Shown one piece after another: positions 50,019-60,917 of a stretch of 64,000 bases of DNA (positions within the stretch are counted from its first letter, which is position 1; each line of letters opens with the position of its first letter). The notes below the pieces were generated by a model, which saw nothing but the letters and a program-made list of their open reading frames with translations, made no database searches and had not been told where the DNA came from. Source of the DNA: Frankia casuarinae (GTDB taxonomy: Bacteria; Actinomycetota; Actinomycetes; Frankiales; Frankiaceae); NCBI RefSeq assembly GCF_000013345.1, contig NC_007777.1, positions 1,860,001 to 1,924,000 of the forward strand, given 5' to 3'. The position numbers and the translations under genes were made by a program.

Positions 50019-50037
50019 TTAACTCATGCTTACCTTA
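50019..50037 (-). promoter_or_regulatory. Candidate DtxR/IdeR iron box before the ferric-uptake operon
   Basis: TTAACTCATGCTTACCTTA on the plus strand (TAAGGTAAGCATGAGTTAA on the coding strand) matches 12 of 19 positions of the DtxR-family consensus TTAGGTTAGGCTAACCTAA. It sits 88 bp upstream of the binding-protein start and overlaps the last codons of the next gene. Confidence 0.55.
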
Positions 50038-52699
50038 GCGCCGTAGAATGTGACGAGTGGCACAAGTCGGGAGCGCTGGCGGGCGAACCGCGGAGCGGAC
50101 GCCTGGCGCCGAGTGGGATCGGCACGCCCGCCGTGAGCCGGCTGAGAAGGCCCATGGCATGGAACGAGACCTTCCACGCGGCGACGCCGACGGTGAGCGA
50201 GGCCAGCAGCGCCAGGACCGGATGGTCGTCCTGCAGAAGGGGGAACACCTGCCAGTGGGTCAGGTAGATGTAGAGCGAGCTGCCGGCCAGCGGGCCCGCC
50301 AGCCGGCGCAGCGGGCGTGGGCAGCGGACGCTCGTGGTCCAGGCCAGCAGGAGCACGCCGCCGAGCACCACGTGCTCCCGGCGTGCGTCAGCGAAGAACC
50401 CGGGGATGGTGAGCGCCGCCGCCGCGGTGAGGGCCAGCCGCTGCCGTACCGTGGTCGCGGCGGCGGTGGCCCATCCCAGCGCGAACAGCCAGAGCACCGC
50501 CACCGACGTCTGGGTGTGGCGTGGTCCCGGCGGTAGGGCCACGACGTCGAAGCGGGTGAGCAGACCGGCGGCGAGGACACCGGCGGCGACGGCCCACGGG
50601 CGGCGCCGCTGCCAGCGGTCGAACGCCGGCACGCCGAGCAGGGCCGCGAGGACCAGCAGGATCTGGACCAGGGCTTCGACGAACCAGAACTCCCAGGGTG
50701 GGCCCGCGCGGTCCGGCCCGAACACGCTGTTGAGCAGCACGATGTTGGCGGGTTCGTGTTCGTCCATGACGAGCACGAGTACGGTGATGAAGACGATGCT
50801 CGGCATCGCGAGGTACGCGATGCTGCGGAGCAGCCCGCGGACCCGGTCGCGCCGCGGCGCCGCGGTCAGGTGGAAACGGGCGAAGTTGTAGCCGGCGACG
50901 GCGATGAGGAGATGGGCGCCCCCGAGGATGCCGCCGACGGCGTCGAAGGTGTTGGCGTGCGTCCCGACGATCAGCACGATCGCAACCGCCCGGAGCAGCA
51001 CGCTGGTCTCGATCGAGCTGCCAGAGCCGCCAGCCCGGCGCTTCGGTCGCGTGGCCGGCTTCAGGTCCCGCACGGCCATGGTGTGCCAGCCGGCGGGCAG
51101 GTGTCCGAGGGCGTCCTCCAGCCGCAGTGACAGTTCCACGTAGGACAGCGAGTCGCCGCCCAGGCTCACGAAGGTGCTGTCGTCGGTGACATCGTCGCGG
51201 TGGAGCAGCTCGGCGAACAGCCGGCGTACGTCGGCTGTTCCGTCCGACGGTCCGTCCCGTCCGGTGGGCGCGGTCGTGCGCGCCGGTCGCGCGTCGCGGG
51301 CGATCTCCTGCAGCGCGACCAGATCCGGTTTGCCGGTGGCCAGGCGGGGCAGGGCGGCCAGGCGGTGGACGCGGACGGCGTTCTCCGGCAGCCGGCAGGC
51401 CCGCGCGACCAGCCGGCGGACCGAAGGCGTGTCCCGGTCACCCTCGATCATCACGTCAACGGCGTCGTCGCCGGTCACGCAGCAGGCGCTGAGCCCCTGG
51501 CCGGCGAGGGTGTCTTCCACGTGTTGCAGGTCGATCCGGATCCCGAAGACCTTGGCGGATCTGGTCTGCCGTCCCACGATCTCGTACAGGCCGTCATCGG
51601 TGCGGCGCGCGACGTCCCCGGTGCGCAGCTCGTCGAGCGTCGGACCGAGCGCGAGGTCCGAGGCCGTCCGCGCGTAACCCATCATGACGTTGGGCCCGGA
51701 ATAGACGAGCTGCCCCAGATCCCCGGTGCTGTCGGTGCTCCCGGTGCGGTCGGCCAGCGGCTCGAGCCGGAACGACCCGCCCGGGACCGGGACTCCGATG
51801 GTGTGGGGGTGGGTCGGCGCGAGGTGCGGCGGCAGGCAGGACATCCGCGCCGTGGCCTCGGTCTGGCCGTACATCACGACGAAGTCCCAGCCGTTGCGTC
51901 GTCCGAGCTCGGCGTAGCGGGCCACCCGGTCCGGCGCCAGTCGACCGCCGGCCTGCGTGATGTAGCGCAGATGCGGCAGCGACATCGCGTCGAAACCGAT
52001 CCTGTCGAGCAGGTCGAACGTGTAGGGGACGCCAGCCAGCGAGGTTCCCTGCCCGTCCCGGAAGAGGTTCCAGAAGCAGGCGTCCACGACGGACAGGGAC
52101 GTCAGGATCAGACCGGCCCCGCACAGGAGGTGACTGTGCACGACCGACAGCCCGTAGCAGTAGTACAGGGGCAGGGTCGTCGCGGCGCGGTCGCCGGGGC
52201 GAAGGCCGAGGCACTCGACGATCGACTCGGCATTGGCCTGCAGGTTCGTGTACGACAGCCGGACCAGTTTCGGTGAGCCCGTCGAGCCCGACGTGCTCAG
52301 CAGCAGCGCGAGGTCCGGATGAAGGTCGTGCTTCGAGCCCTCCCGCCGCTGCTCGACGCGGGTCCGCGTGCCGGCCGGGCGGATCACCACGTCGGGGTCA
52401 TAGGACGTGATCAGGGCGTCGGTCGACGCGGCGTTGTCACCCGGCACCAGCAGGACCGCGTGCCCGGCGGACAGCGCCGCCAGGTACAGGACGAGGACGT
52501 CGATCGTGTTGACCGCCGCGAGGAGCACCAGCCGCCGCCCGGCGCCGAGCCGACCGGCGGCGGCGTCGACGCGTGCCGCCAGTTCGCGGTAGGACAGCCG
52601 GCCCTCAGCCGTGACAACGGCCGTGCGGTCACCGTGCCGTTCAAGGTGGCGGGCGAGGAACACAGTCGAGCTTGCGAGGGACGGGCCTGCCTTGGTCAC
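50030..52699 (-). CDS. Adenylation - carrier - membrane acyltransferase fusion protein
   Basis: An 889-residue three-part protein. Residues about 10-465 form an AMP-binding adenylation domain (LLLSTSGSTGSPKLVRLSY P-loop, VMYGQTEATARMSCLP, LRTGDVARRTDDGLYEIVGR, LATGKPDL). Residues about 480-555 form a phosphopantetheine carrier with GGDSLS and attachment Ser517. Residues about 570-870 form an acyltransferase-3-like domain with about 10 helices (LRAVAIVLIVGTHANTFDAVGG at the start). It would activate an acyl or amino acid, load it on its own carrier and transfer it at the membrane. The start is GTG 52699, 17 nt after an iron box, so production under iron starvation is likely. No ribosome site was found. 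Confidence 0.88.
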   Translation of the reverse strand: MTKAGPSLASSTVFLARHLERHGDRTAVVTAEGRLSYRELAARVDAAAGRLGAGRRLVLLAAVNTIDVLVLYLAALSAGHAVLLVPGDNAASTDALITSYDPDVVIRPAGTRTRVEQRREGSKHDLHPDLALLLSTSGSTGSPKLVRLSYTNLQANAESIVECLGLRPGDRAATTLPLYYCYGLSVVHSHLLCGAGLILTSLSVVDACFWNLFRDGQGTSLAGVPYTFDLLDRIGFDAMSLPHLRYITQAGGRLAPDRVARYAELGRRNGWDFVVMYGQTEATARMSCLPPHLAPTHPHTIGVPVPGGSFRLEPLADRTGSTDSTGDLGQLVYSGPNVMMGYARTASDLALGPTLDELRTGDVARRTDDGLYEIVGRQTRSAKVFGIRIDLQHVEDTLAGQGLSACCVTGDDAVDVMIEGDRDTPSVRRLVARACRLPENAVRVHRLAALPRLATGKPDLVALQEIARDARPARTTAPTGRDGPSDGTADVRRLFAELLHRDDVTDDSTFVSLGGDSLSYVELSLRLEDALGHLPAGWHTMAVRDLKPATRPKRRAGGSGSSIETSVLLRAVAIVLIVGTHANTFDAVGGILGGAHLLIAVAGYNFARFHLTAAPRRDRVRGLLRSIAYLAMPSIVFITVLVLVMDEHEPANIVLLNSVFGPDRAGPPWEFWFVEALVQILLVLAALLGVPAFDRWQRRRPWAVAAGVLAAGLLTRFDVVALPPGPRHTQTSVAVLWLFALGWATAAATTVRQRLALTAAAALTIPGFFADARREHVVLGGVLLLAWTTSVRCPRPLRRLAGPLAGSSLYIYLTHWQVFPLLQDDHPVLALLASLTVGVAAWKVSFHAMGLLSRLTAGVPIPLGARRPLRGSPASAPDLCHSSHSTALR

Positions 52700-52715
52700 C
52701 CAGCCAATGTACAAG

Positions 52716-53856: not shown

Positions 53857-53906
53857 CCCTGACGCCCCACCGCCCCGACTCGCGTCAGGGCGGTGGGGCG
53901 TCAGGG
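53857..53906. terminator. Perfect 19-bp hairpin after the HdeD gene
   Basis: CCCTGACGCCCCACCGCCC (53857-53875) pairs without mismatch with 53888-53906 across a 12-nt loop. It lies 77 bp after the HdeD stop. The first possible GTG of the ABC gene (53893) falls inside the right arm, which argues for the later GTG 53965. Confidence 0.8.
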
Positions 53907-53964
53907 TTGTGCTCCGCGGGAGGCTCTTCGCCGCCTCGGCGCGCGTCGGCATAGCCTCGGCGGC

Positions 53965-55905
53965 GTGATCCGTGAGCCGCTGCCCGTCCCGTCGGAGACG
54001 GCCTTCCCGTCGTGGGTGATCCGCTTGCATGCGCGTGCGCTCGCGCGGTTGACCGGCGCGCCCGAGGCGCGGCGCAGCGTCCGGTTCTTCGCCGACCAGG
54101 GCCGGGTCGTCGCGGTCCTCGTCGGGCTGTCCGTTCTCGGTTCGGCCGCCGTCGCCGTCGGGCCGTTCGTCCTGCGCCATCTCATCGACACGTCGTTGCC
54201 CACCGGCCAGGTGCGTGACCTCGTCGTCCCCGTTCTGCTGCTGTGCGCGGTGCTGGTGTTCGAGTCGAGCGTGCTTTCGGTGCGCATGGCGCTCATCGCT
54301 CGGCTCGGCGGCGTTGTCTCCGTGCGGATCCGTCAGACGGTGAACGCTCACCTGCAGCGCCTGCCCTTCGCCTTCTTTCCCCGCAGCCAGCAGGGGGAGG
54401 TGATGACGGTGATGTCCACCGACGTCCTGAACGCCCAGAACGCGATTTCCGCCACCGTGCAGGCGGTGGTCTGCCGGATCGCGGACATCGTCGTCGGCTC
54501 GATCGTCGTCTTCGTGCTGGACTGGCGTCTGAGCCTGGCGGTGATGGTCTTCGCGCCGGCCACGCTGCTGATCGTCCGCTCGGGCCGGCGGCGGCTCGCC
54601 GCGCTGTCCATCCGCCAGCGGGAGCTCGACGGTCTGCTCATGGTCCAGGTCGCCGACACCTCGTCGGTCTCCGGGGCGCTGCACGTGCGGCTGTTCGACC
54701 GGGTCGACTACGAGCAGACCCGCTTCGACGCGGCGGGCGCCGAGCTGCTCGCCGCCGCCGAGGATCAGGCCCGGCTGATGTCGCGGGTCCGGTTCCTGGT
54801 CAACCTCGGGATTATCGCGACGATGACGGCGGTGCTGGCGCTGGGGGCCTGGCTGGTCTCCAGCGGTCGCATCACGCTCGGGACGGTCGCAGCCCTGGGC
54901 GGCGCGTTGCTGGTGGCCTTCGGACCACTGTCGTCCGCTGTCAACCTGCGTGCGGAGCTCGCGGGTGCGGGCGCGTCCTTCCGGCGGATCTTCTCCCTGC
55001 TTGACGTCCCGCAGGACGAGGTACGCCTGAGGTTCGAAGGGGCCCGGGCCCCCGCGCTGACCGTCCCCCGCGCACCGCGGTCCGGGACGGAACCGGTGCC
55101 GGCCGCCGCTCGCTGGGGAGTCGATGCCGGCCGGGGACTCGATCTGACGTTCGACGACGTATGGTTCTCTTACGATCTTGCCACGGCCGAGGACCGGCCG
55201 GACGGCGACTGGCCGGACGACGACCCGACGTGGAACCTGCGCGGGGTGACCCTGAAAGTCGCCGCGGGGACGACGACGGCGATCGTCGGGGCCAGCGGGG
55301 CCGGCAAGACGACCATCACCTATCTGGCCAGCGGCATGCACCGGCCGCGGCGCGGCGGCATCCGTCTCGGCGGGGTTCCCCTCGACGACATCCCGCCGGA
55401 TAGTCTGCACACGATGATCGGCGTCGTCCCTCAGGACCCGCATCTGTTCCATGACACGATCGCGGCGAACCTTCGTTACGGCCGGTTGGACGCAACCGAC
55501 GACGAGCTGCGTGCCGCCCTGGCGGCCGCCAGCCTCTCCGCCCTGCTCGACCGGCTGCCCGAGGGCCTGGCGACCCGGGTCGGCGCCCGGGGCTACCGGT
55601 TGTCCGGTGGTGAGCGGCAGCGGTTGGCCATCGCCCGGGTCCTGCTGCAGTCACCACGGGTGCTGGTGCTGGACGAGGCGACCTCGGCGCTGGACACCGT
55701 CTCCGAGGCCGCCGTGCGCACCGCCCTGGACCGGCTCGCGGTGGGGCGGACGTGCCTGGTGATCGCGCACCGGCTGTCCACGGTGATTGACGCCGACCGC
55801 ATCTACGTGATGGACCACGGCCAGATCGTCGAGGACGGCACGCACAGCGAGCTGCTCGCCGACGGCGGCGCCTACGCCCGCCTCTACCGGCCCACCGTCG
55901 TCTGA
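53965..55905 (+). CDS. ABC exporter, fused membrane and ATPase domains (MsbA/LmrA type)
   Basis: A 646-residue half-transporter. Residues about 45-340 form a six-helix exporter domain (RIRQTVNAHLQRLPFAFFPRSQQGEVMTVMSTDVLN is the typical helix 2-3 loop). Residues about 395-645 are the nucleotide-binding domain, with Walker A GASGAGKT (442-449), signature LSGGERQR (546-553) and Walker B VLVLDEATSALD. There is no N-terminal C39 peptidase domain. It ends 54 bp from the convergent M50-like gene and is the obvious candidate exporter for the peptides at 57.6-58.4 kb, which is inferred from position. GTG 53965 lacks a strong ribosome site. Confidence 0.88.
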   Translation: MIREPLPVPSETAFPSWVIRLHARALARLTGAPEARRSVRFFADQGRVVAVLVGLSVLGSAAVAVGPFVLRHLIDTSLPTGQVRDLVVPVLLLCAVLVFESSVLSVRMALIARLGGVVSVRIRQTVNAHLQRLPFAFFPRSQQGEVMTVMSTDVLNAQNAISATVQAVVCRIADIVVGSIVVFVLDWRLSLAVMVFAPATLLIVRSGRRRLAALSIRQRELDGLLMVQVADTSSVSGALHVRLFDRVDYEQTRFDAAGAELLAAAEDQARLMSRVRFLVNLGIIATMTAVLALGAWLVSSGRITLGTVAALGGALLVAFGPLSSAVNLRAELAGAGASFRRIFSLLDVPQDEVRLRFEGARAPALTVPRAPRSGTEPVPAAARWGVDAGRGLDLTFDDVWFSYDLATAEDRPDGDWPDDDPTWNLRGVTLKVAAGTTTAIVGASGAGKTTITYLASGMHRPRRGGIRLGGVPLDDIPPDSLHTMIGVVPQDPHLFHDTIAANLRYGRLDATDDELRAALAAASLSALLDRLPEGLATRVGARGYRLSGGERQRLAIARVLLQSPRVLVLDEATSALDTVSEAAVRTALDRLAVGRTCLVIAHRLSTVIDADRIYVMDHGQIVEDGTHSELLADGGAYARLYRPTVV

Positions 55906-55959: not shown

Positions 55960-57453
55960 TTACCCGCGTCGGCAGCCTTCCCGGTGCGCCCGGACCGCCC
56001 GTAGCACGCCCCGGGCGAGCAGGAACAGCACGAACAGCATCCCGCCGGCCGGCAGCGCGACCAGCAGCGCGGAGACGACCTCCGCGAATGCGGTGACCAG
56101 CTTCCCGTCACGGGTCGCCCGGCCCGCCAGCCCGAGATAGTCCCACATGGCCCGGGTCGTCCGGGTAAGCACGAACGGAACCGAGACCATGAGCACGACC
56201 AGGTTCACCAGGATCAGCGGCGCCGCGAGCAGCGCCCAGGCGGTCACCACGATCCGGGCCGGCCGGGTCAGCCCGTCCGGTCGGCTTCGGATGTCCGGCG
56301 GGGTCAGCCCGTCCGGTCGGCTCCGTCCTGCTGATCGGGCAGGCCGCCCGCGCGGGACGCGGTTGCGCCGCCGTGGCAGCGTCGCGCGTAGCGCCGGCCC
56401 CATCCGGTTGAACAGGTCCGGTACCCCGGCCAGGTCGCTGACGATGTAGTAGCCGTCGAGCCGGACGAAGGGCGCAAGCTGGCGCATGGCATCCAGGTGG
56501 ACAAGGACGACGGCGGTCACCAGCACACCGGCGTGGGTGAGCGCGAGAGCCCCGGCGAGCAGCAGAACGAACAGTCCGTTGAAATAGATGCCGCCGAGGT
56601 CGGTGCGCAGCCGGCCGAGCCGGCTCAGCCGGTAGGAGTCGGTGACGTCGGTGAAGAAGGCCGGCCACACCAGGTACATGCCGAAACCGATGACTCCCGG
56701 GCGGGCACCGCCGTAGTGGCAGGCCGCGGCGTGCCCGCATTCGTGGAACAGTGCGCCGGCGAGGGCCAGGCCGACCACCACCAGGATCAGCGCCGGGGTC
56801 GCGAGCACCTCCGCCGCGCTGTCTCGGACGCTGTGCCGGCCGAACGTCCACACGTCGGTGACCACCAGCAGGGCCAGCAGCAGGGCCACGGCCGCTGGCC
56901 GGAACAGCATCGCGAACACCCGGCTGACCCGGTGCACGGCCGGCGCGGGTAGCAGGGTGTGCCGGGCTGCGAGTGTGAACAGCGCCTTCGCCCGTGGTGC
57001 CGGGGTGACGCCGTTCTCGCTGGCGATCAGGCCGAGTGGCATGAGCCGATCCGCTACGAGGTACGCGACGTCGGCGCCACTCATCCGGCGGGCGCAGACC
57101 ACCGTGACCCGGTCGGCAATCGCGGCGACGTCGCGGGCGCCGTCCGCCGCTTCGAGGATGTGCGCGAGCAGTTCGGTGAGTGCGACGACCTGACCGTCGG
57201 CGCGGCGGGCCAGGAAGACGGGTCGGGCCAGGCCCGACCCGGTGAACTCGCCGAGTAGCGCCAGGCCGTCGGCCCGGCTCGGTCTGGCGGGTACCTCGGT
57301 CGGCCCGGGAACGCCCGTCGGATCGGTGACGCCGGTGACGCCGGTGATATCGGTGACGCCGGTGATATCGGTGAGGTCGGGCGTCCGGTCCGGTTTGGAA
57401 GGCACCGGCGGCATCGTTGTCGGCCGGGTGGACGACCGGGTGGACTCGGTCAT
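55960..57453 (-). CDS. M50-like membrane metalloprotease with PqqD-like N-terminal region
   Basis: A 497-residue protein. Residues 1-45 contain TDITGV/TGVTDPTGV repeats. About 50-135 is a PqqD-like winged-helix region (PVFLARRADGQVVALTELLAHILEAADGARDVAAIADRV), a fold that binds leader peptides in RiPP pathways. About 160-470 is a polytopic membrane domain with zinc motif HECGH (237-241), then LRTDLGGIYFN and the family pattern LDGYYIVSDLAGVPDLFNRM carrying the probable third metal ligand. It would cleave or anchor substrates at the membrane. ATG 57453 was chosen over the open frame to 57825, which overlaps the peptide gene. It lies 148 bp downstream of precursor peptide A. Confidence 0.88.
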   Translation of the reverse strand: MTESTRSSTRPTTMPPVPSKPDRTPDLTDITGVTDITGVTGVTDPTGVPGPTEVPARPSRADGLALLGEFTGSGLARPVFLARRADGQVVALTELLAHILEAADGARDVAAIADRVTVVCARRMSGADVAYLVADRLMPLGLIASENGVTPAPRAKALFTLAARHTLLPAPAVHRVSRVFAMLFRPAAVALLLALLVVTDVWTFGRHSVRDSAAEVLATPALILVVVGLALAGALFHECGHAAACHYGGARPGVIGFGMYLVWPAFFTDVTDSYRLSRLGRLRTDLGGIYFNGLFVLLLAGALALTHAGVLVTAVVLVHLDAMRQLAPFVRLDGYYIVSDLAGVPDLFNRMGPALRATLPRRRNRVPRGRPARSAGRSRPDGLTPPDIRSRPDGLTRPARIVVTAWALLAAPLILVNLVVLMVSVPFVLTRTTRAMWDYLGLAGRATRDGKLVTAFAEVVSALLVALPAGGMLFVLFLLARGVLRAVRAHREGCRRG

Positions 57454-57489
57454 CTGCGTCCCATCCTCATTGTCATGAACTGGCGGGAA

Positions 57490-57521
57490 GCCGGCCGCCG
57501 GTCCGTCGACCGGCGGCCGGC
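57490..57521 (-). terminator. 14-bp hairpin with 4-nt loop between peptide A and the protease gene
   Basis: GCCGGCCGCCGGTC (57490-57503) pairs perfectly with 57508-57521 around the loop CGTC. Lying between a short precursor gene and its downstream enzyme gene, it probably lowers readthrough so that peptide is made in excess over protease. Confidence 0.7.
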
Positions 57522-57567
57522 CGGGTGACCACCCCGGAGGAATCCGGCGGTGTATCTGTCGGTCGTA

Positions 57568-57596
57568 GCGGTAAAGCGGTAAAGCGGTAAAGCGGT
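57568..57596. repeat. Three 9-bp tandem repeats downstream of peptide A
   Basis: GCGGTAAAGCGGTAAAGCGG followed by TAAAGCGGT: the unit GCGGTAAA(G) is repeated three times, ending 6 bp from the peptide stop at 57602. Confidence 0.85.
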
Positions 57597-57601
57597 CGGT
57601 G

Positions 57602-57862
57602 TTATTTCTGTATGATGATGTTGATGCTCGGTACCAGTGTGATGAGAATGGGCAGGAATCCACCGGCGACCTGCGGCTCCGCATGAGCGTCGATCTGTGC
57701 CATTTTCGACCAGGGGGAGCCGACCGGAAAGAAGGTTGGGTCAAACTCCTTCCGACCGATCTCGACCGCGGCGAGAGTCGTCCGTTCGGGTAGTAGTTCC
57801 GCCCATTCCAAGAACAGTTCTCCATTCAGCTCGCCGGCGCAGTTGCCCGTGATATCGTTCAT
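57602..57862 (-). CDS. Putative RiPP-type precursor peptide A (86 residues)
   Basis: A small protein with a polar N-terminus, a conserved block at 21-64 and a 22-residue hydrophobic tail at 65-86 rich in Ile, Leu, Val and Pro (FLPILITLVPSINIII). The block (AELLPER, TLAA, EFDPTF, PVGSP, AQID, EPQ) is 34 of 44 identical to peptide B, whereas the tails match at only 6 of 22 positions. Conserved leader plus variable C-terminal core is the hallmark of ribosomally made, modified peptides. ATG 57862 has GGTGGGAA upstream. It is followed by a hairpin and the M50-like gene on the same strand. There is no signal peptide. Function inferred. Confidence 0.72.
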   Translation of the reverse strand: MNDITGNCAGELNGELFLEWAELLPERTTLAAVEIGRKEFDPTFFPVGSPWSKMAQIDAHAEPQVAGGFLPILITLVPSINIIIQK

Positions 57863-58033
57863 CCTTGTTTCCCACCGATCTGAGTTGCCTCGGATATTCG
57901 GGCGGTGGGAACGCTAGCCACCGCTCAACCTGGTGGCCAGCACCTGCACAAGGTGTGTCACGGTCGTGCCAGCGTCGGTCGAAACTTCGGCTGGCCTTCT
58001 CGGATCGGCCTGACCGAGGCGAGGGCATGCCTT

Positions 58034-58064
58034 CCGGCCGGCCGAAGGATAGTCGGCCGGCCGG
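58034..58064 (-). terminator. 12-bp hairpin between peptide B and peptide A
   Basis: CCGGCCGGCCGA (58034-58045) pairs with TCGGCCGGCCGG (58053-58064), loop 7 nt. It sits in the 304-bp gap 57863-58166, which otherwise shows no gene and should include the peptide A promoter if that gene is separately transcribed. Confidence 0.65.
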
Positions 58065-58166
58065 TGGCCGCGGGTGCACGGTGCCCTTGGCGACCTCGGG
58101 AGAACGTGGTCGGGTGCGGTTACCCGGCCGGGGAGACCGGCGTGAGGAGCAGAATCGTTCCGGAGT

Positions 58167-58415
58167 TCACCACTGCTCGATGCGGTTCCAGCTGTTGGCG
58201 ATGGTCTTGACGAACGCTCCGTCGCTGTAGGCGGTCTGCGGCTCCGGATGATTATCGATTTGGGCATTGTTGCTGCCCGGCGAGCCGACCGGGTAGAAGG
58301 TGGGGTCGAACTCGGTGCGGTTTATCTCGATCGCCGCCAGGGTCATGCGCTCGGGCAGCAGCTCCGCGTGTTCTTGCGCCAGCTCGACGACGTCTGTCTC
58401 CCTGCGGTCCCTCAT
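58167..58415 (-). CDS. Putative RiPP-type precursor peptide B (82 residues)
   Basis: Paralogue of peptide A with a strong ribosome site (GGGGAG, 8 nt before ATG 58415). The conserved block is at 17-60 (AELLPER 17-23, EFDPTF 35-40, PVGSP 42-46, AQID 51-54, EPQ 58-60), then a 22-residue tail at 61-82. The tail is polar and aromatic, with Tyr63, Phe68, Trp76 and Trp82, unlike the aliphatic tail of A. Its first 16 residues are charged (MRDRRETDVVELAQEH). It heads the minus-strand unit B - A - M50 and is divergent from a P450/ferredoxin pair. No Cys is present, so lanthionine or disulfide chemistry is excluded for this peptide. Confidence 0.75.
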   Translation of the reverse strand: MRDRRETDVVELAQEHAELLPERMTLAAIEINRTEFDPTFYPVGSPGSNNAQIDNHPEPQTAYSDGAFVKTIANSWNRIEQW

Positions 58416-58973
58416 CTTCTGGCTCCCCTGTGTGTCGCTCGGTACCCGTCATGACGCAGGATGTGGGCACCGGCCGGTGGCGAGGAATCGGCCGGCGCGG
58501 GGCGGGGTCAGAACTCACCGGAGGGCGCGGATTCCGCGGCATCCGGTGGTACTACCGAACTGTAGGAGCCGCGGTTACCCTCCGCAACACGGATCTTGTC
58601 CTCGGTCGATCTGACCGGTCCAGGCCCACTCGGCGGGTGGTCGGATCATCATCCGCGCCCGGGCGCGAGCCTGGCGTGGGGAAGGCCGATTCTCTACGGA
58701 TGATTCACCATGGCATTTTTCCCGATGGCGATAGATGGGAAATCAAAAATGGTAGACAATATTGAACTATGGTGAATTTTGTCAAAAAATATAAAATAAT
58801 ACTGACGTGTCGAACAATGCCGATCCACTTGTTGATGGATGTTCTCTTCCTCGGGGCTATCTTCGGCGGTGGATATCCGGATGCGGTCCGTTCAAACGAC
58901 AGCAATTTTTCGCGTGGATGGTAGCGTCGTCGGTGTCCGAGGTCCCGCGTGAACGACGAAGGGTGGACAGGCG
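58416..58973. other. 558-bp divergent regulatory region with an AT-rich island
   Basis: It lies between peptide B (minus) and the P450 gene (plus). About 58690-58920 is strongly AT-rich for this genome (for example TTGTCAAAAAATATAAAATA near 58779). It contains an inverted repeat ATTCACCAT (58703-58711) / ATGGTGAAT (58769-58777). Short ORFs crossing it have no ribosome sites. It probably carries both promoters and regulator sites. Confidence 0.6.
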
Positions 58974-60173
58974 ATGGCCGCGGCACCGATAGTTCCGCTG
59001 CATATACGGCGAGCGCAGTTCGATCCGATCGAGGAACTCGTCCGGATCCGGGACACCGACGGCGTCTGCCGCGTTGTCACCGTGTTCGGGATACCCGCGT
59101 ATCTGGTCAGCCGGTACGAGGACGTCCGCGAGATACTCGCGGATCCGGGCAGGTTCAGCAACGTCAATCAGTGGGTCGTAGGTCCTGGCGGTCCCGTCCT
59201 GAGTGATGAGGAAATCGCCGAACTGCGGGCGGGGCAGATGCTCGCGTTCGATCCGCCAGATCACACCCGGCTGCGCCGGATGCTCACCCCGGAGTTCACC
59301 GTGCGCCGGATGCGCGGGTTGGAGCCGCGGATCCGGGACATCGTCGACGCGGCGCTCGACGAGGTGGAACGGGCCGGCCGGCCTGCCGATCTGGTCGCGA
59401 CCTTCGCGCTTCCGGTGCCGTCGCTGGTGATCTGCGAGTTGCTGGGGGTGCCGTATTCCGACCGCGCGGAGTTCCAGCAGCGCACCCGCCGGCAGATCGA
59501 CGCCTCGTTGCCGATCGAGCAGCGGCTGGCCCTGCAGCGCGAGGCCCGTGCGTACATGGCCGGGCTGGTCACGCGGGCGCAGGCCGCCCCGGGCGAGGAC
59601 CTGCTGGGCATGCTGGTGCGCGAGCACGGCGACGAACTGAGCACCGCCGAGCTGGTCGGCATCGCCTCGCTGCTGCTGGTCGCCGGGCACGAGACGACGT
59701 CGAACATGCTTGCTCTCGGCACCCTGGCGCTGCTGCGCCATCCCGACCAGCTCGCCATGGTCCGCGACGATCCGGCCCAGGTCGAGCCCGCCGTCGAGGA
59801 ACTGCTGCGGTGGCTGTCCATCGTGCCCTCCGGTGTGCCCCGCACGACGACGACCGAGGTGGAGATCGCCGGTCACCGCATCCCGGCGGGCGAACAACTG
59901 CTCCTGGCGCTACCCGCGGCCAACCGAGACCCGGCTCTCGTCGGGGATCCGGACCGGCTCGACATCACCCGTGGCGCTCCCGGCCACGTCGCTTTCGGCC
60001 ACGGCGTGCACCACTGCCTGGGAGCGCCGCTGGCCCGGATGGAGATGCGCATCGCGTTCCCCGCGCTGCTGCGACGCTTCCCCGATCTCGCGCTGGCCGT
60101 GCCCTACGAACAGGTCGCGTTCCGTGCCCATCATGTCGTACACGGGCTGCACGCACTCCCGGTCACCTGGTGA
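58974..60173 (+). CDS. Cytochrome P450 (bacterial class I, CYP105/107-like)
   Basis: A 399-residue soluble P450. The I-helix motif AGHETT is at 237-242, the K-helix ExxR is in VEELLRWLS, and the haem-binding FGHGVHHCLGAPLAR has Cys348. The start MAAAPIVPLHIRRAQFDPIEELVRIR is typical of actinomycete P450s of secondary metabolism. It needs ferredoxin electrons, and a ferredoxin gene follows 43 bp later. Substrate unknown. Position suggests, but does not prove, that it tailors the adjacent peptide product. Confidence 0.93.
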   Translation: MAAAPIVPLHIRRAQFDPIEELVRIRDTDGVCRVVTVFGIPAYLVSRYEDVREILADPGRFSNVNQWVVGPGGPVLSDEEIAELRAGQMLAFDPPDHTRLRRMLTPEFTVRRMRGLEPRIRDIVDAALDEVERAGRPADLVATFALPVPSLVICELLGVPYSDRAEFQQRTRRQIDASLPIEQRLALQREARAYMAGLVTRAQAAPGEDLLGMLVREHGDELSTAELVGIASLLLVAGHETTSNMLALGTLALLRHPDQLAMVRDDPAQVEPAVEELLRWLSIVPSGVPRTTTTEVEIAGHRIPAGEQLLLALPAANRDPALVGDPDRLDITRGAPGHVAFGHGVHHCLGAPLARMEMRIAFPALLRRFPDLALAVPYEQVAFRAHHVVHGLHALPVTW

Positions 60174-60216
60174 GACCCGGTCCCTGGTGGAAGAGGGCGG
60201 AACAGGAGGGTGTCGC

Positions 60217-60411
60217 ATGAAGATTGTCGCTGATCGCGCCGTCTGTGTCGGCGCTGGGATGTGCGTGATGACCGCGCCGGAGGTCTTCGATCAGGGTGAC
60301 GACGGCCTCGTCGTCACCCTGATCGAAGAGGTCGCCGCCGGTCGGCTGGACGCTGTGCGCCGATCGGTCGCGCTGTGTCCGTCGAAGGCGCTGCGCGTGC
60401 TGGACGACTGA
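60217..60411 (+). CDS. Ferredoxin (3Fe-4S type) partner of the P450
   Basis: A 64-residue ferredoxin with cysteines at 10, 16 and 54 (CVGAGMC ... LCPSKAL). This is the three-Cys pattern of single [3Fe-4S] ferredoxins that donate electrons to actinomycete P450s; APEVFDQGDDGLV is also family-typical. ATG 60217 has AGGAGGG upstream. It is co-transcribed with the P450. No ferredoxin reductase is nearby. Confidence 0.93.
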   Translation: MKIVADRAVCVGAGMCVMTAPEVFDQGDDGLVVTLIEEVAAGRLDAVRRSVALCPSKALRVLDD

Positions 60412-60917
60412 CGAACGGGTCGGCCGCCCGGCGGGCGTCACGCGGTGCAGTTGCTGGTGAAGCCATCCGTGGGCGGCGTGGATCCCGGGGGCGTGGACAT
60501 GGCACCTCCGATGCGTCGCGACCGGGGTCATCGGGCGCACGTCCGGATGGCGGGCGAGATCCGGTCTCCGCTGATCATAATAGGTTGATGAGCTGACGGA
60601 TCGCGGCGCATCAAGACCCTGATGCGTGGTTCCGTGCCGCTCCGGGGTGCCGTGTTCCGGGGTGCCGTGTTCCGGACCGCCGTGTTCCAGGGGTACCGTG
60701 CTTCCGGTTTTGGGGGCTTTCCCGACCGAGAATTTCCGTAGGCCCGCTCGGCCGAAGGTGGTCCATGAGCCAACGGGCGCGTCCGCACGTCCACCGAGAC
60801 GGCGGCGTATATCTTGGGGTCGCGTCATATCAGTCCCGCGTCCGGAGTAACGTCTCCTTAGCGGTGCCACGCTGATATGCCGGCTGAACCCGACAAAACC
60901 CTCGGAGGAGACAGACT
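60412..60917. other. 506-bp intergenic region before the GH18 gene
   Basis: No supported gene on either strand. It contains a 15-bp tandem repeat array (60646-60707) and ends with the strong ribosome site GGAGGAG before GTG 60918. The promoter of the GH18 gene should lie within the last 150 bp. Confidence 0.55.
60646..60707. repeat. Four 15-17-bp tandem repeats
   Basis: GGTGCCGTGTTCCGG occurs perfectly at 60646-60660 and 60661-60675, then degenerate copies follow at 60676-60690 and 60691-60707. It lies in the intergenic region upstream of the GH18 gene. Confidence 0.85.

Follow-up and report, generated by a model that had tools for sequence, protein, structure and literature searches.

A minus-strand cassette of three genes in Frankia casuarinae, encoding two paralogous small precursors (B, then A, in the direction of reading) followed by an M50-type membrane metalloprotease, points to a family of protease-released peptides that we provisionally regard as undescribed. 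We consider it fairly probable that B and A are leader-tagged precursors which the neighbouring protease cleaves and releases, with no dedicated modification or transporter, and whose products would act jointly at the cell envelope. The cassette lies in a stretch of 64,000 nucleotides (the window, positions 1860001-1924000 of a single-contig genome of 5.43 Mb, whose nearest named relatives are Frankia and Pseudofrankia). Open reading frames and their translations place the three genes in one reading direction (Table 1).

Table 1. Features of the cassette and its surroundings (positions in the window, except in the last row, where they refer to the named loci).
Feature	Position	Strand	Evidence
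Peptide B precursor, 82 aa, MRDRRETDVVELAQEHAELLPERMTL...NSWNRIEQW	58167..58415	-	ORF, translation, orthologues, leader-profile rank
B leader motif VVELAQEHAELLPERMTLAAIEI	58323..58391	-	Anchored alignment of 23 precursors; blind HMM test
B C-terminal tail, 22 residues, last residue Trp	58170..58235	-	Kept among B orthologues, pN/pS 0.46
Peptide A precursor, 86 aa, MNDITGNCAGELNGELFLEWAELLPER...SINIIIQK	57602..57862	-	ORF, translation, orthologues, leader-profile rank
A leader motif NGELFLEWAELLPERTTLAAVEI	57758..57826	-	Anchored alignment; blind HMM test
A hydrophobic tail VAGGFLPILITLVPSINIIIQK, 22 residues	57605..57670	-	GG.[LM]P...PSIN near-invariant in A orthologues
M50-type membrane metalloprotease, 497 aa, ATG at 57453	55960..57453	-	ORF; sub-cut-off NCBIfam matches; co-occurrence with A/B
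Protease N-terminal PqqD/RRE-like region (weak match)	57019..57276	-	Profile comparison, Pfam
HECGH zinc motif of protease	56731..56745	-	HExxH invariant in nine-protein alignment
LDGYY motif of protease, candidate third zinc ligand D333	56446..56460	-	D333, G334, Y335 invariant in nine-protein alignment
Promoter-like TTGACA-18-TATTGT 5' of B	58756..58785	-	Consensus match only
Convergent ABC exporter, excluded from cassette	53893..55905	+	Orthologues at unrelated positions, cassette present or absent
SCxxC-domain protein and putative lipoprotein genes	L106 6618-8122; L134 2961-4453; L135 3066-4564; L103 3047-4548

Five promoter-like sites were found where shuffled sequences gave 0.3 on average, four of the five lying on the minus strand where the sequence is AT-rich. 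Short tandem repeats are present within the protease N-terminus (57320-57380, of GGTGAC/GGTGAT type, TDITGVTDITGV) and between A and the protease gene (57565-57600, TTTACCGC).

Two related peptides with distinct conserved tails

A and B are paralogs (BLASTP, E=1e-26). The first-pass annotation had described a 44-residue block (AELLPER...EPQ), 77% identical between the two, followed by tails of exactly 22 residues with six identities. Recomputation returned the same figures (34/44 and 6/22), and the contrast in identity between block and tail has a Fisher p of 1.4e-4. The A tail is hydrophobic (best 19-residue Kyte-Doolittle mean 2.01). That annotation could name no described family for the EFDPTFxPVGSP block, and no curated Pfam or NCBIfam family matches A, B or their relatives, a single sub-threshold LCCL match being judged due to chance.

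Among orthologues, the A tails follow the pattern GG[IF]LPILI[ST]L[VI]PSIN[IF]I and the B tails end in ...QW. Their pN/pS ratios are 0.15 in the leader and 0.35 in the tail of A, and 0.27 and 0.46, respectively, in B, with values of 0.66-0.76 at the extreme N-termini of both. The presence of orthologues in two genera and this purifying selection within the genus argue that A and B are more than chance reading frames. The hypervariability of tails on which the earlier reading had counted does not extend to orthologues. Members of one orthologue group keep their tails (pN/pS 0.35-0.46), so that A and B would represent two distinct conserved products and not a hypervariable library.

Between genera, wholly different cores stand behind the same leader. 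In the sister genus, A has a hydrophobic block followed by an acidic stretch that ends in GGWMDFLRRLFG[RM] in most members, and B is rich in Asn, Ser and Val, with a single Trp at its end; the first Trp of the B tail in the window is not kept. Is the A product then simply the C-terminal 22 residues? The long acidic extension in the sister genus suggests that it is not, and the C-terminal boundary of the product is uncertain. One genome (G031) has, at 9650-10174 of L083, another B-like gene, an orphan whose end is altered (FINQR) and which no M50 gene adjoins; it is possibly a decaying copy.

Conserved tails could also be signals. M50 proteases liberate regulators and pheromones in other bacteria, and A and B might be pheromone-like peptides freed by a site-2-type protease, with a receptor encoded elsewhere; tails that are kept inside lineages and differ between genera would fit. 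However, the neighbours of the cassette include no recurrent receptor or regulator gene, and the long repetitive cores of more distant relatives (up to about 280 aa) are unlike pheromones. We consider a signalling role unlikely.

The conserved unit among Frankiaceae

Of the 13 genomes of the genus, 8 carry the A/B pair, and in the sister genus 7 of 8 do. Strong orthologues of the M50 protease (E<1e-100) accompany it in all 15 of these and are missing from the remaining six of the 21 genomes (Fisher p=1.8e-5). In a third genus, g6, three genomes combine the M50 gene with a single peptide, in which MTTTTGLDAAELAAEHAELLPERSAMAVWDY precedes an unrelated Gly/Phe-rich core. Genes beyond these differ between genera: inspection by eye showed that most of the genus has a LuxR/AAA-type regulator, a HelD-type helicase and a fusion of SulP with carbonic anhydrase there, and that in g6 the neighbours are housekeeping genes, among them glnE, glnA and panB. 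As judged from these gene neighbourhoods, conservation is confined to B-A-M50.

The ABC exporter that had been included in the locus does converge on it, but its linkage to the cassette did not survive comparison. Orthologues 72-84% identical are found in many Frankiaceae, including cassette-free species, and in the two complete genomes of the genus that were compared they lie megabases away from it (0.41 Mb versus 5.12 Mb in G001, 5.22 Mb versus 0.26 Mb in G004). We therefore attribute its proximity in the window to chance and reject it as a cassette member. This bears on the idea that A and B form a two-peptide bacteriocin exported by this transporter, which the convergent exporter and the two co-oriented peptides, one of them hydrophobic with GG before the hydrophobic block, might suggest. 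Besides being widespread and remote from the cassette elsewhere, the transporter lacks a peptidase domain, Pfam recognizing ABC_membrane and ABC_tran only; no peptidase-containing ABC transporter, by which such bacteriocins are recognized, is linked to the cassette, and no immunity gene recurs at the Frankiaceae loci. A bacteriocin is thus very improbable.

A P450 gene (58974-60173) lies divergent from and adjacent to B, whose tail has two Trp residues. A and B could then be true RiPP precursors with a modified core, for instance through cross-linking of the two Trp by this P450, or through an enzyme encoded elsewhere. However, the P450 gene stands beside the cassette only in the window and clusters with no gene at the other Frankiaceae loci compared, and we rejected it as a modifying enzyme; sister-genus B, with its single terminal Trp, lacks the first one. 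No dedicated post-translational modifying enzyme recurs at Frankiaceae or phylum-wide loci. We see little chance that the cores are modified. Of the initial proposal of a new RiPP family, the leader-core precursors accompanied by an M50 protease stand, whereas the term RiPP, strictly taken, is unproven, since no modifying enzyme recurs.

Two further genes in the window deserve mention. The ferredoxin gene 3' of the P450 (60215-60411, plus strand) contains an imperfect palindrome, in which FDQGDD..VVTLIE[ED] is read on both strands, and it is overlapped by a minus-strand ORF (60163-60870). A large protein encoded at 50030-52714 (minus strand) combines AMP-binding, carrier-protein and membrane acyltransferase domains.

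The M50 protease

The HECGH membrane metalloprotease first noticed 3' of A and B, on the same strand, is real: HExxH and the downstream Asp-Gly, which together in a membrane protein mark an M50 or site-2-type protease, are invariant in an alignment of nine proteins. It matches two curated families, both below their cut-offs: NCBIfam daptide_HExxH scores 94.9 bits (cut-off 300; aligned over residues 82-360) and YydH/LiaK 46.4 bits (cut-off 225).

The PqqD-like character of its N-terminus is suggestive only. The region is collinear with the PqqD profile over 61 of 66 columns, but the match is weak (p=0.005, probability 7%); in Pfam searches, single family members matched PqqD (0.029) and a winged-helix model (0.0025). 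AlphaFold predictions had pLDDT values too low to use (44 for the protease, 47 for A), and a sequence search of solved structures produced nothing relevant.

A leader motif shared across the phylum

With the M50 protein of a Streptomyces plasmid as query, 12 of the 56 non-Frankiaceae genomes sampled from the class proved to have relatives (13 loci), as did 2 of 55 from other classes of Actinomycetota. The family thus appears scattered across the phylum. At all 36 M50 loci whose upstream flank was covered, a leader-bearing protein adjoins the protease. These comprise 19 Frankia-type loci (L024 among them), L071, two Streptomyces plasmids (L084, L085), 12 loci of the same class (L101, L102 and L104-L113, including one genome's second locus) and two of other classes (L134, where the peptides are divergent in orientation, and L135). 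L103, cut at a contig end, was left out of this count. The profile and linkage check proposed initially therefore came out positively, in that leader-bearing small peptides next to an M50 gene recur across Actinomycetota.

The adjoining proteins follow the leader pattern E-[LI]-x2-E-x3-x-LP-[DE]-[RK]. The part common to the phylum spans only about 23 residues (ELxxExxELLPERxxLxxxx), and the boundary between leader and core had thus been misplaced when the whole 44-residue block was taken as leader. EFDPTFxPVGSP...AQIDxHxEPQ is lineage-specific, and lies at least partly on the core side, since the g6 peptides diverge directly after ELLPER. When 23 precursors were anchored on the Pro, Leu at -1 and Arg/Lys at +2 were found in all of them, although only the other positions are independent, as the precursors were selected by the LP-x-[RK] pattern; among these, Leu/Ile at -9 and Glu/Gln at -6 each occur in 21 of 23.

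A blind profile of 23 positions, built without any Frankiaceae member, ranked B first (E=0.0017) and A second (E=0.46) among 1008 frames of the window. The Frankia leaders are thus at the edge of detectability for a profile of this length (A: E=0.46). In the reverse search, the top five of 2541 frames were all leader peptides of M50 loci. In a held-out test on the two genomes of other classes, each with three leader peptides adjoining the M50 gene, these six peptides took the first six places among 364 frames (E from 2.8e-11 to 2.3e-5). The leader is retained while the core is replaced in the g6 and Streptomyces peptides; a conserved leader before a replaceable core is the arrangement of RiPP precursors.

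Many relatives have cores of the NANxAAPVNAAVAANVLSDxSxAxAxAxQ type, with arrays of up to three precursors. Most also have an SCxxC-type domain 3' of the M50 gene, either fused to the protease or encoded separately as a secreted protein, and at four non-Frankiaceae loci a secreted SCxxC-domain protein is accompanied by a putative lipoprotein (Table 1). Neither the secreted domain nor the putative lipoprotein matches a curated Pfam or NCBIfam family. A resemblance of the secreted domain to BasB of the 'bindosome', for which a literature search gave mainly papers on archaeal surface structures, was rejected as a chance match (E=0.26). Among Frankiaceae only G015 has the SCxxC domain, which suggests that Frankia has the system in minimal form.

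These relatives raise the possibility that the precursors have a structural or amyloid-like role as surface proteins, from which the M50 protease merely strips a chaperone-like leader. The NxNxAAPxxAAVAANV and Axx-Q repeats, the adjoining secreted protein and lipoprotein genes, and the Asn/Ser/Val-rich composition of sister-genus B all favor this view; A and B of the window, however, are short and have no such repeats, and structure predictions gave no usable support (A pLDDT 47). We hold it to be rather unlikely.

Comparison with known systems

Daptide clusters, too, place several small precursors (MpaA) next to an M50/site-2 protease (MpaP); theirs carries an N-terminal RRE, of which the weakly PqqD-like region of the Frankia enzyme may be a counterpart. 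The Frankia protease nevertheless falls far short of the daptide family cut-off, and where daptides have an ELExMEAP leader and an invariant C-terminal Thr (PMC10036551), A and B have ELLPER and end in Lys and Trp. Moreover, enzymes of the MpaB/C/D/M type, such as the oxidative decarboxylase, aminotransferase and methyltransferase that mark daptide clusters, are outside the B-A-M50 unit. Epipeptides (EpeX/YydF, EpeP/YydH) also involve an M50 membrane protease implicated in cleavage and export (PMC10885120), but the score against YydH/LiaK is again far below cut-off, the conserved neighbours of the cassette include no radical-SAM epimerase, and the precursors are unrelated. The pearlin enzymes TglG and TmoG are likewise membrane-bound M50 proteins acting on ribosomal scaffold peptides (PMC10885120); unlike the proposed Frankia protease, they cut a modified amino acid off the C-terminus, in a pathway not seen at the cassette.

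Literature searches for the leader motif, or for an RRE with an M50 protease in Actinobacteria or Frankia, returned only daptides and protease reviews; as subscription-only literature was outside their scope, 'undescribed' is a provisional term.

A proposed model for leader-guided peptide release

Our best reading is that of leader-guided, M50-released peptides without dedicated modification. B and A would be paralogous precursors sharing an N-terminal recognition leader, ELxxExAELLPERxTL, which the candidate winged-helix (RRE/PqqD-like) region at the N-terminus of the protease probably binds. The zinc site of this enzyme (HECGH, LDGYY) may then cleave both precursors within or at the membrane; the C-terminal part would be released outward, the cassette containing no dedicated modifying enzyme or transporter. 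Both the cleavage and the release step have precedents: MpaP, an RRE-fused site-2 protease, is described as removing daptide leaders (PMC10036551), and a role in cleaving and exporting EpeX is assumed for the M50 protein EpeP (PMC10885120). Our guess is that A (hydrophobic, transmembrane-like) and B (polar, amphipathic) most likely cooperate at the cell envelope, the Frankia cassette being a reduced form of the phylum-wide system of leader peptide and M50 protease.

Could the system be wider still? We tentatively suggest, as a possibility somewhat short of even, an unnamed export route of Actinomycetota in which a dedicated RRE-M50 protease would recognize, cut and release peptides and small proteins that bear an EL..E...LP[DE][RK]E leader, unmodified and independently of ABC transporters, to build or decorate the surface together with the secreted SCxxC protein and the lipoprotein. 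With peptides, secreted domain and lipoprotein all outside curated families, this would be a sizeable blind spot in the annotation of Actinomycetota. The leader profile is ready for use in finding many unannotated small proteins. As the proposed release step by leader, RRE and M50 is here separate from any chemistry, the system could reveal the effect of M50-coupled peptide release taken by itself.
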